Assembly: GCA_945948185.1 (NCBI GenBank)
Contig: CAMFAL010000002.1
Coordinates: 1-64,000 of the forward strand
From: an uncultured Clostridia bacterium
GTDB lineage: Bacteria; Bacillota; Clostridia; Oscillospirales; Oscillospiraceae
Direction of reading: 5' to 3'
Length of the DNA stretch: 64,000 bases
Shown: piece by piece, positions 11,075 through 30,969 of the stretch
How the letters are laid out: every line of letters starts with the position of its first letter
Numbering within the stretch: the first letter of the stretch is position 1
Notes under the pieces: model-generated
Seen by the model: the letters and a program-made list of their open reading frames with translations, nothing else
What the model was told of the DNA's origin: nothing
Databases searched by the model: none
Position numbers and translations under genes: made by a program

Positions 11075-11959
11075 TCAGGCAGATTCCTCCGCCGGATTCA
11101 CATGTACCATGCAGTGCTTCACCTGGGGGAACTGGGCCTCCAGGGCGTCGTGGACGGCCTGGGCGGTGGCGTGGGTGACTCTCAGAGGCAGGTCGCCGTC
11201 GGCGGCGATCTCCACGTCCACATACACCCGGTCGCCGAACAGGCGGGTGTTCAGTGCGTCCAGCCGCAGCACGCCGGGCTGCGCCAGGATGGACTTGCGC
11301 ATCTCCTCCGCCGTCTCCGGGTCGCAGGCGTGGTCCGTCATCTTCTCCAGGGCGTCGGACATGATGTCCCAGGCGGCCTTCAGAATGAACAGGCAGATCA
11401 CAACGCTGGCGATGGGATCCAGGGCCGGGAAGCCCAGCCGTGCTCCCAGGATGCCCGCGAAGCTGCCCACGGAGGACAGAGCGTCGGAGCGGTGGTGCCA
11501 GGCCTCGGCCTTCAGGGCACTGGAATCAATCTTCTTGGCTGCCAGCCAGGTGTACCAGAACATGGCCTCCTTCACCACAATGGAGACCACGGCGGCCACC
11601 AGGGCCAGCACTCCGGGCACTACCAGCGCCTCGCCGCTGGCGACCTTTTGGATACCGCTCCAGCCGATGCCCAGGCCCGTGGCCCCCAGGATCACGGCCA
11701 GAATCAGGGCCGCCACGCACTCCAGCCTCTCGTGGCCGTAGGGGTGGTCCCGGTCGGCGTCACGCCCGGCCAGCTTCACGCCCAGGATGACGATGAATGT
11801 GGCCAGTACGTCAGATGCGGAGTGGACGGCGTCGGAGACCATAGCGCCGGAGTGGGCCAGGAAGCCCGCCAGGAATTTGAAGCCCGCCAGGGCCAGGTTG
11901 ATGGCGATGGTGACGGCGGACACGCTCACCGCCACTTTCTCATGTTGTCTTGGATCCAT
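11075..11959 (-). CDS. Cation diffusion facilitator family transporter
   Basis: KFLAGFLAHSGAMVSDAVHSASDVLATFIVILGVKLAGRDADRDHPYGHERLE; downstream of a NiCo riboswitch. Confidence 0.95.
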   Translation of the reverse strand: MDPRQHEKVAVSVSAVTIAINLALAGFKFLAGFLAHSGAMVSDAVHSASDVLATFIVILGVKLAGRDADRDHPYGHERLECVAALILAVILGATGLGIGWSGIQKVASGEALVVPGVLALVAAVVSIVVKEAMFWYTWLAAKKIDSSALKAEAWHHRSDALSSVGSFAGILGARLGFPALDPIASVVICLFILKAAWDIMSDALEKMTDHACDPETAEEMRKSILAQPGVLRLDALNTRLFGDRVYVDVEIAADGDLPLRVTHATAQAVHDALEAQFPQVKHCMVHVNPAEESA

Positions 11960-12019: not shown

Positions 12020-12183
12020 TACCGAAAATGGGTGCAAAACTTCATGCGCAGGATGGTGCACCGATGAACGTCGGAACGCGCAGTTGTGCATGAAGTTTTT
12101 GTGCATCATTTCCGGTTGCCCCGCAAGGGGCGAGGAAATGGCACATCATCATTTTTTTGCTATGCCCCTGCATAGCAAAAAAA
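12020..12183. repeat. Structured repeat element, copy A
   Basis: Three hairpins (H1 12034-12102, H2 12101-12144, H3 12152-12183) matching 23209-23362 in order and sequence, with compensatory differences. Confidence 0.85.
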
Positions 12184-12222
12184 CACACCTGCGGCACAGG
12201 TCGCACTGTCCCGCAGATGTGT
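12177..12222 (-). terminator. NiCo riboswitch expression-platform terminator
   Basis: CACACATCTGCGG...CCGCAGGTGTG followed by TTTTTTT; overlaps the 3' strand of the aptamer. Confidence 0.9.
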
Positions 12223-12294
12223 GGTGAATCTCATCCGCTGCCGCTGAACGCGGCCCGACGCACGGGCTTCCCGGGCCCGCCGTCTGCTCAGTTT
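12205..12294 (-). ncRNA. NiCo (czcD) riboswitch aptamer
   Basis: Minus strand: AAACTGAGCAG...GGCCGCGTTCAGCGGCAGCGGATGAGATTCACCACACATCTGCGGGACAGT, matching the NiCo pattern (CUGAGCAG ... GCGGCA..GAUGA..ACA.CACAUCUG.GGGACAGU); CDF transporter downstream. Confidence 0.88.
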
Positions 12295-12354
12295 GTACTG
12301 TTGTCCGGCGCTTTTGATTGGAAAAGCGTGATGCAGTGCAAAGAGGATATCCAT

Positions 12355-21951: not shown

Positions 21952-23175
21952 TTAGATATAAGCGCGGTGGAATACCTTCTTGCCCTTCTTGATGACCACG
22001 CCGTCGCCCTCGAAATCGCTCTGGTCGAAGGTCACGTCGATGGAGGCCACCTTCTGGTCATTGACGGCCACGCCGCCCTGCTGGATCAGCCGCCGGGCCT
22101 CGCCGTTGGAGGCGCACAGGCCGCAGGCCACCAGCAGATTGATGGCGCCGATCTTGCCGTTCTCGAACTTGTCGGCAGACAGCTGAGAGGAAGGCATGTG
22201 CTCCAGAGAGCCCTTGCCGGAGAACAGGCCCCGGGCGGTCTCTTGGGCCTTGGCAGCCTCCTCCTCGCCGTGGACCAGCTTGGTCAGCTCGTAGGCCAGA
22301 ATCTCCTTGGCGGTGTTCAGCTGGCTGCCCTCCCACTTGTCCATCTCGTCGATCTGCTCCAGAGGCAGGAAGGTCAGCATACGGATGCACTTGAGGACGT
22401 CGGCGTCCTCGATGTTCCGCCAGTACTGATAGAAGTCATAGGGAGAGGTCTTGTTGGGGTCCAGCCACACGGCTCCGGAGGCGGTCTTGCCCATCTTCTT
22501 GCCCTCGCTGGTCAGCAGCAGGGTGATGGTCATGGCGTGAGCGTCCTTGCCCAGCTTGCGGCGGATCAGCTCGGTGCCGCCCAGCATGTTGCTCCACTGG
22601 TCGTTGCCGCCGAACTGCATGTTGCAGCCGTAGTGCTGGAACAGGTAGTAGAAGTCGTAGGACTGCATGGGCATGTAGTTGAACTCCAGGAAGCTCAGAC
22701 CCTTCTCCATGCGCTGCTTGAAGCACTCGGCCCGCAGCATGTTGTTGACGGAGAAGCAGGCGCCGATATCCCGGATGAAGTCCACGTAGTTCAGGTTCAG
22801 TAGCCAGTCGGCGTTGTTGACCATCTGGGCCTTGCCCTCGCCGAAGTCGATGAAGCGGGACATCTGCTTCTTGAAGCAGTCGCAGTTGTGCTGGATGGTC
22901 TCCTTGGTCATCATGGAGCGCATGTCGCTGCGGCCGGAGGGGTCGCCGATCATAGCGGTGCCGCCGCCGATCAGGGCGATGGGCTTGTTGCCGGCCATCT
23001 GCAGCCGCTTCATCAGGCACAGGGCCATGAAGTGGCCCACGTGGAGGGAATCGGCGGTGGGGTCAAAGCCGATATAGAAGGTGGCCTTGCCGTTGTTCAC
23101 CAGCTCCCGGATCTCGTTCTCGTCGGTCACCTGGGCGATCAGACCACGGGCAACCAGTTCTTCGTAAATCTGCAT
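21952..23175 (-). CDS. tyrS: Tyrosyl-tRNA synthetase
   Basis: FYIGFDPTADSLHVGHFMALCLMKRLQMAGNKPIALIGGGTAMIGDPSG, GKKMGKT, C-terminal S4-like domain. Confidence 0.97.
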   Translation of the reverse strand: MQIYEELVARGLIAQVTDENEIRELVNNGKATFYIGFDPTADSLHVGHFMALCLMKRLQMAGNKPIALIGGGTAMIGDPSGRSDMRSMMTKETIQHNCDCFKKQMSRFIDFGEGKAQMVNNADWLLNLNYVDFIRDIGACFSVNNMLRAECFKQRMEKGLSFLEFNYMPMQSYDFYYLFQHYGCNMQFGGNDQWSNMLGGTELIRRKLGKDAHAMTITLLLTSEGKKMGKTASGAVWLDPNKTSPYDFYQYWRNIEDADVLKCIRMLTFLPLEQIDEMDKWEGSQLNTAKEILAYELTKLVHGEEEAAKAQETARGLFSGKGSLEHMPSSQLSADKFENGKIGAINLLVACGLCASNGEARRLIQQGGVAVNDQKVASIDVTFDQSDFEGDGVVIKKGKKVFHRAYI

Positions 23176-23208: not shown

Positions 23209-23362
23209 TACCGAAACGGAATCAAAACTTCATGTGCCGGTACGCCGCAATTAAAGAAAGCTCATGTAGGCGCATGAAGTTTTGGTGCATCAATTCCGGT
23301 TGCCCCGAAGAGGCGAGGAATTGGCGCATTTTAATATTTTGCCATGCCCTGCATGGCAAAAT
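23209..23362. repeat. Structured repeat element, copy B
   Basis: Same H1-H2-H3 hairpin order as 12020-12183; shared cores TACCGAAA, CAAAACTTCATG, CATGAAGTTTT, TTCCGGTTGCCCCG, GGCGAGGAA. Confidence 0.85.
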
Positions 23363-23633
23363 TGAAGCCCCCGTCCCGGCAGGGACAGAGGGCGAAATGC
23401 TTTCGCGGTACCACCTCTGGTTCGCCGTTTCCTCGCGAAAACGGCCTCACGCCGTGCCAACACACGGCAGCGCGGTAACGGGCGCTCCCGGAGCACGCCT
23501 ACTGGGTTTCGGAAAAACCGTTGGGGTGCCGGCTCCGCGGTGTATTCGGCGGGCGTCCCTCTCCCCTTTCCACCGTCCAGGGGCTCTCTAGGCAGGGCGA
23601 TCCGCGTACTTCTCCGCATCAATGCCATATACG
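23363..23633 (-). ncRNA. T-box leader, tyrosine specifier
   Basis: Minus-strand AGAGGTGGTACCGCG T-box sequence followed by a terminator; specifier GAATACAC with TAC (Tyr); AGTA and AGAGAG..GGTGGAAAGGGGA stem I features; precedes tyrS. Confidence 0.9.
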
Positions 23634-30197: not shown

Positions 30198-30277
30198 AAA
30201 AGGAGGAAGGAATGAAGCGAGCGCAGTTTTCGCCGCTCTGCGGCGGAAACGGAGCATAGCGTAATTTCTTCCGACGT

Positions 30278-30935
30278 GCTAAGCTGGCGGCAGCAGAAAA
30301 AGTAAATCTTACGGCTTAGGTACGGGTTGGTTTTCCCCATGGCGCACCTCTCGTTGCCGATGGAGGCGGTTCCCCCTTCGGCGCCATGGCACAGCGTCGC
30401 CAGTCAGCGCTACCCGATTGCCACTTAGTCCGCACTGCAATCCTTTTTCTGCCCCGCAAAGACAGCCTAGGTGATTTCCACAACAGTCTGTCCGTTTCTT
30501 TAGCCTCTTTTGCAGAGACGGTTTCAGAGAGCAGGGGGCCGCCATGCTCCGGCCGGGAGCGAAAACGGCCTGGCCTCTCATTCACCAATCCCCACGCAAG
30601 GCAGGCTACATCTGCACACAGCGTTACGGCCCGGGATGGCCGATGCACCGCATTGCAGGTTCATCATCTGCTTCGTACACAGCTCGGAAATACCGCGATG
30701 GGAGTACGGCTGTGCACAAGAGCAGGTCTCCACGGAAACAGGGTCGGGGTAACCATGCCATTGGAAATCGCCCTGAGTCCGCAAGCACGCGCAGCGTGCT
30801 TCCCCCCAGCACCCACCCAAAACTGGGCGTATCAAGCAGGCACCAGAGGTTTCATCGGTGTGCCCTTCAGAGGATTTTTAGGCCCTCCCTAGGAAACGGC
30901 AGATCTGACTAGAATACTGCGCCGCCGCTTAGCGA
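30278..30935 (-). ncRNA. ole: Large structured non-coding RNA, probable OLE RNA
   Basis: ~658 nt without a credible ORF; ends pair (GCTAAGCGGCGGCGCAG with CTGCTGCCGCCAGCTTAGC); own promoter; synteny ispA-RNA-oapA-dxs-tlyA. Confidence 0.78.
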
Positions 30936-30940
30936 ACATC

Positions 30941-30969
30941 AGTATAGCACGGTTTTTATAAATATACAA
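30941..30969 (-). promoter_or_regulatory. Promoter of the large non-coding RNA
   Basis: TTGTAT-17-TATACT on minus, with -10 about 7 nt upstream of the closing stem. Confidence 0.65.

Follow-up and report, generated by a model that had tools for sequence, protein, structure and literature searches.

Two copies of a small three-hairpin element lie in the window, that is, the whole 64,000-nucleotide stretch of an uncultured Oscillospiraceae genome analysed here, and both are probably members of a large Oscillospirales family of non-autonomous mobile DNA elements of about 140 bp, with the structure X-H2-Y, whose targets would be picked by base pairing in the manner of IS608. The first-pass annotation had read the element on the plus strand, and had left it as either an RNA element acting after an attenuator or a small mobile element with terminator U-tracts as its insertion sites. 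The riboswitch, the terminator and the gene are all encoded on the minus strand, which is therefore the sense strand, and the sense order is U-tract, X (H3 of the earlier reading), H2, Y (its H1) and gene. The hairpin order, the bulges and the core sequence given in that annotation for both copies were confirmed on re-reading the sequence.

Copy A (minus strand) is located in the leader of a gene for a CDF-type metal transporter (11075..11959, minus strand; the name is read from sequence), on the 3' side of a NiCo riboswitch aptamer (RF02683 in Rfam, 12204..12301, minus strand) and its terminator stem-loop (12187..12201, minus strand), the U-tract of which is the insertion target. Hairpin X (12152..12183), with arms TTTTTTTGCTATGC/GCATAGCAAAAAAA, comes first, and its outer T-run doubles as the U-tract of the NiCo terminator. 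It is followed by the core hairpin H2 (12101..12144; matched by R2, the covariance model of H2, at 12098-12147 with 74.5 bits), laid out as GYGC, a 7-bp variable stem, a UC/AACC internal loop, GCCCC/GGGGC and an AU bulge, and then by hairpin Y (12036..12100), with arms AAAACTTCATG/CATGAAGTTTT and a conserved apical part. The direct repeat TTTTGC (minus strand) flanks the copy on the left (12175..12180) and, 141 bp away, on the right (12034..12039).

Copy B, likewise on the minus strand, is found between the tyrS T-box leader (RF00230 in Rfam, 23385..23631, minus strand) and tyrS itself (21952..23175, minus strand), and comprises hairpin X (23336..23362, ATTTTGCCATGC/GCATGGCAAAAT), H2 (23285..23327; R2 match at 23282-23330, 65.1 bits) and hairpin Y (23224..23283), with the direct repeat TTTTG on the left (23357..23361) and, 134 bp from it, on the right (23223..23227). 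The distances to the start codon, 75 nt for the transporter gene and 48 nt for tyrS, are those reported earlier. Both copies come directly after a regulatory terminator: H3 of copy A overlaps the NiCo U-tract, and that of copy B follows the T-box. The apical sequences of H1 had been called unrelated, but the apical parts are recognisably homologous among most copies, copy B being a divergent one. The same window also carries an OLE RNA (RF01071, 386 bits) at 30271-30941 on the minus strand.

The direct repeat TTTTG(C), together with empty sites in orthologous leaders, which had been proposed as a check and were found for both copies, identifies the window copies as insertions. The site of copy A is empty in two genomes, G029 (locus L019) and G008 (L097); in G029 the empty leader reads GTGTGTTTTTTGCACCC, with a single TTTTTTGCACCC, and the window has GTGTGTTTTTTTGC...GAAGTTTTGCACCC in its place. 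Within the genus, no fewer than 16 tyrS leaders are empty where copy B sits, for example those of G007 and G012. The net insertion amounts to 141 bp (A) and 134 bp (B), and the filled sites are flanked by a direct repeat of 4-6 nt that lies in a T-run, which makes its length uncertain, and that may be the element's own end rather than a target-site duplication. The NiCo insertion is shared by G007 and G028, and that in tyrS also occurs in G021; sharing by two or three species, with pairing largely retained, is seen for the NiCo, tyrS, M-box and purine leader insertions. Beyond the window, the copies at spoIVA have an empty site in Pusillibacter faecalis (L389), locus L241 has an empty counterpart in L316, and G346 contains near-identical copies of about 110 bp at unrelated sites. 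From such comparisons we infer that the element is mobile.

A covariance model built from ten copies of the window-type element (R1; the E-values of such home-made models are rough) matched in 41 of the 86 genomes of the genus. Pairs that change together had been noted between the two window copies, and in the ten copies compensatory changes affect 10 of 44 pairs (shuffled mean 2.7), well outside what chance would give. Copies at unrelated loci have in common X (TTTTGCTATGC/GCATAGCAAAA), H2 and Y (AAAACTTCATGCGC/GCGCATGAAGTTTT), the apical part of Y being homologous as well. In this branch X always lies beside a T-run, and the element takes a single orientation relative to the terminator; a GC-rich hairpin directly precedes the T-run in 16 of the 30 strict terminator-class copies, compared with 67 of 403 control TTTT sites. 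Empty orthologous sites, the short direct repeat, unrelated flanks, the constant orientation and the occurrence in 41 genomes all favour the second of the two options offered earlier, a small mobile element inserting into terminator U-tracts.

Comparison of 40 loci with Rfam showed, besides the NiCo and tyrS leaders, insertions in leaders of the M-box (two events), purine, TPP and fluoride classes. Several T-box leaders are among the sites, including that of tyrS and those at L022 and L053, where a T-box motif precedes the element. The suggested clustering behind riboswitch and T-box terminators applies to some 9 of about 40 insertion events, which looks like an enrichment; the remainder are mostly at gene-end terminators, often between convergent genes. 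Given these leader insertions, a secondary regulatory effect is possible. The same X and Y ends were also seen around another core hairpin, H2b (L115, L117, L120 and L062 of G081, as well as L057, L028 and L116). G081 has many H2b elements and no H2, so the core seems to be exchangeable.

The hairpin H2, by itself a strongly covarying motif, is the part common to all contexts, with the pattern G[CG]C, 7-bp stem, UC, GCC..GGC, AACC, 7-bp stem, AU, G[CG]C. It is an imperfect palindrome in which the UC/AACC loop and the AU bulge are conserved and enclose a 7-bp stem of variable sequence and fixed length. In 30 copies, chosen partly by pairing, changes occur on both sides in 12 of 16 pairs, and in this partly pairing-chosen alignment 95.6% of cells pair, compared with 73.1% when shuffled and 38-50% in slid versions. 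Because these sequences had come through a partial pairing filter, a pattern blind to the arms was scanned against 85,488 species genomes. Among the matches listed, at least 6 of the 7 arm pairs were formed in 119 of 125, and 33 of 38 distinct arm pairs were paired, as against about 25% after shuffling; several unpaired matches fall in unrelated taxa and look like chance.

Nearly all of the arm-blind matches listed are Oscillospirales MAGs. The R2 model matched in 54 of the 86 genomes of the genus and in 34 of 298 genomes of the order, and among 399 genomes of the phylum only family members were matched; the named records with partial H2 matches are Vescimonas fastidiosa and Pusillibacter faecalis, both Oscillospiraceae. 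H2 is scattered across the Oscillospirales and essentially absent elsewhere. A match to a known Rfam family had been named as an observation that would speak against the element, and at the gathering threshold no family covers it; the lax threshold returned weak chance matches only, such as that of CRISPR-DR57 on copy A (E 0.2). BLASTN of named phage records gave no match to either the window element or a promoter-class unit, and literature searches of open-access papers turned up no description of this element family. Integron attC sites were also considered, and were set aside on inspection for want of R/L boxes and ORF cassettes.

Around this core, different X and Y hairpins are found at other kinds of site, where gene names were read off translated starts or ends. 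Some copies lie 3' of promoter -10 boxes (G346, G194, G183, G134 and others); others separate the Shine-Dalgarno sequence from the start codon or occupy gene junctions (spoIVA, pyrD-like, rbgA-like and maf-like genes, and operons of G156). H2 is also found within tRNA genes, where the 5' half of tRNA-Lys is repeated. Three or more unrelated genomes have it at the beginning of rnhA, and several species, often as tandem copies, at the end of the CTP synthase gene (pyrG). In some branches the direct repeats measure at least 30 nt (about 30-75 nt) and the shared core is bounded by different ends. Arrays of H2 units of about 110-175 bp were encountered at L119, L202, L214, L217 and L031, and some of these repeat a gene end two or three times.

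Where it is visible, the element's right end reproduces the target motif in working form, and the site therefore stays functional. In the promoter branch a -35-like box (at least 4 of 6 matches) accompanies 14 of 35 left, host-side copies (about 10% expected at random) and none of 26 right copies, 23 of which have an extended -10. In the Shine-Dalgarno branch the ribosome-binding site of the next gene sits in the right arm of Y; at spoIVA and L241 the element is inserted just before the start codon and brings its own Shine-Dalgarno sequence inside Y. At L049, L055, L056 and L113 of the latter branch the anti-Shine-Dalgarno strand of Y can also pair with a nearer decoy, for instance AACCTCC...GAGGTT, and a Y hairpin of this kind might alternate between hiding and exposing the ribosome-binding site. 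The idea that H2 is an aptamer controlling the Shine-Dalgarno sequence could apply to this branch only; it leaves the promoter and tRNA branches unexplained. At three G156 loci (L207, L208, L178) the left arm of X is made up of the final codons of the upstream gene, whose stop codon falls in the loop, and the right arm is the reverse complement of the left. Given this match to host gene ends, some of the inverted repeats may derive from host DNA that was copied at insertion.

Downstream of H2, 59 of 100 copies have an inverted repeat of at least 9 nt, compared with 10 of 482 control windows; on the upstream side the figures are 65 of 100 and 20 of 482. The stretch right after H2, here called T', is often complementary to the target motif and pairs both with the right-hand target copy, as hairpin Y, and with the host-side left copy. 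Complementarity of at least 8 nt between T' and the left host flank was found in 36 of 205 non-redundant copies, whereas 200 permutations gave 7.2 on average and at most 13; this test ignores relatedness and tandem arrays (where the left flank is the previous unit). In the tRNA-Lys, rnhA and pyrG branches the complementary stretch spans the insertion point, and in the window copies T' is just AAAA, pairing with TTTT. Nothing convincingly complementary to T' was found at long range, up to 5 kb away, among the matches listed.

These observations can be accommodated by a scheme in which a recombinase or transposase supplied in trans would recognise H2 and act on single-stranded DNA (or RNA). T' would serve as the guide, its base pairing with the target selecting the site as the guide sequences of IS608 do, and a changed T' with a matching right end would give rise to branches with different targets. 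An insertion in a leader places three more hairpins in the 5'-UTR downstream of the attenuator, and any regulatory effect would be secondary. A more specific version, which we put forward tentatively and would not call probable, is that of a naturally retargeted guide-directed class, with H2 as the handle for a shared enzyme, the guide picking the motif and the far end restoring it. If true, a single family could in this way colonise sites as different as promoters and terminators, tRNAs, ribosome-binding sites and certain genes, and leave them unbroken.

The search for such an enzyme covered gene presence and gene neighbourhoods. In the genus, the Y1 transposase (PF01797) is uncorrelated with H2 (17 of 54 genomes with H2, 12 of 32 without; p=0.64) and is missing from 11 of 16 H2-rich genomes, several of them 97-100% complete; reverse transcriptase (phrog_1423) is uncorrelated too (16 of 54 and 9 of 32, p=1). 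Among about 400 ORFs at 121 loci, no gene recurs beside the copies and none lies between the ends of an element, as it would in an autonomous version. Viral contigs of IMG/VR contain H2 as well (L391, L392, L393, L395, L394), and of three viral contexts two are within genuine DGR loci, in which the TR/VR pair was verified and its differences are adenine-specific. The hairpin there follows the VR gene in one phage type and sits between avd and TR in another. A link with DGRs was considered, and the presence profile of reverse transcriptase against H2 gives it no support.

A classical element derived from IS200/IS605 or of the REP/RAYT type, with a REP-like H2 moved by a Y1 HUH transposase (TnpA or TnpAREP) in a new host group, would share several traits with the family: a hairpin with conserved mismatches, tandem units, and a target motif that remains in the host flank and recurs at the element's right end, with the choice made by base pairing (the logic of IS608; PMC5934647). 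Even the position of T' is that just 3' of the left hairpin at which bases were added to retarget IS608 (PMC5934647). We nonetheless regard this origin as rather unlikely, as neither GTAG nor CGTC precedes H2, Y1 genes do not track the hairpin and most H2-rich genomes lack them, the guide is 3' and not 5' of the hairpin, and the repeats of some branches reach 30 nt or more. The other option of the first-pass annotation, hairpins that act in the 5'-UTR after read-through (on stability, anti-termination or translation control) and are kept for that function, draws on the riboswitch and T-box insertions, on the sharing of four leader insertions between species with pairing largely retained, and on the Shine-Dalgarno sequence within Y. 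As the primary identity of the element it is improbable, given that most terminator copies are at gene ends, that the same core resides in promoters, start sites, tRNAs and gene ends, and that relatives have the same leader without it.

The preference for terminators and the variable long repeats would also be accounted for by a retroelement, in which a reverse transcriptase of group IIC-like or DGR type would bind the H2 RNA and insert the element by target-primed synthesis. Group IIC introns insert next to intrinsic terminators, and the DGR loci with H2 point the same way. Reverse transcriptases do not follow H2 among genomes, however, a second DGR in the same phage is without the hairpin, the H2 of L395 has the ordinary position after a gene end, and no intron features were seen, all of which makes this explanation very improbable. 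As for an ordinary MITE of a DDE transposase with a short target-site duplication in T-rich DNA, it would fit a non-coding unit of about 140 bp with a 4-6-nt direct repeat and is contradicted by ends (TTTTGCTATGC and AAAACTTCATGCGC) that are not inverted repeats of one another, by the constant orientation relative to the terminator, and by the branches in which the shared core has other ends and repeats of about 30-75 nt; we give it hardly any credence.

If the guide reading is true, the family would be a natural counterpart of the engineered retargeting of IS608 by longer pairing, one in which evolution has already produced many target classes. Its enzyme would then be a candidate tool for programmable insertion of DNA. 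Whatever the mechanism, insertions in the leaders, promoters and start sites of a major gut order will confuse the annotation of riboswitches, promoters and terminators, and the filled and empty leaders provide ready natural pairs for measuring the effect of insertion on expression.

With regard to known systems, the element differs from group IIC introns in its size of about 140 nt, in having no ribozyme domains or reverse transcriptase, and in the non-terminator targets of its other branches; a group II or IIC intron identity was dismissed, there being no Rfam intron match, no ribozyme parts and no linked ORF family. Bacterial MITEs and small repeats such as BOX, RUP and ERIC/RU are likewise short, non-coding, dispersed hairpin insertions that alter leaders (PMC10969869, PMC3049150, PMC2759123), whereas the present element has no terminal inverted repeat joining its ends and combines a conserved core with target-specific ends. 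It resembles REPs, BIMEs and REPINs, mobilised by TnpAREP (RAYT), as a small palindrome with a conserved mismatch that is intergenic, non-autonomous and both interspersed and in tandem (PMC8266576, PMC3116915). Unlike these it shows no correlation with RAYT and no GTAG tag (in 30-38 aligned copies H2 has RAT-nGC/GCC before it and AT-GSC after it, and GTAG/CGTC is absent), and it has X and Y hairpins matched to the target motif and defined target classes.

The IS200/IS605 family relies on the Y1 transposase TnpA, the cleavage sites CL and CR and the guides GL and GR, and in IS608 the left guide pairs with the target, specificity being raised by complementary bases 3' of the left hairpin (PMC5934647). 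As in that family, the target motif stays in the left flank, a like motif ends the element and hairpins are subterminal; as in IS608, base pairing beside a hairpin would choose the target, and a change of guide alters the target of IS608 (PMC5934647). In contrast to IS608, the element has no transposase gene in or near it and does not co-occur with Y1 genes, it has one central H2 in place of two end hairpins, with the guide 3' of the hairpin, and its pairing extends up to 12-18 nt over many natural target classes.
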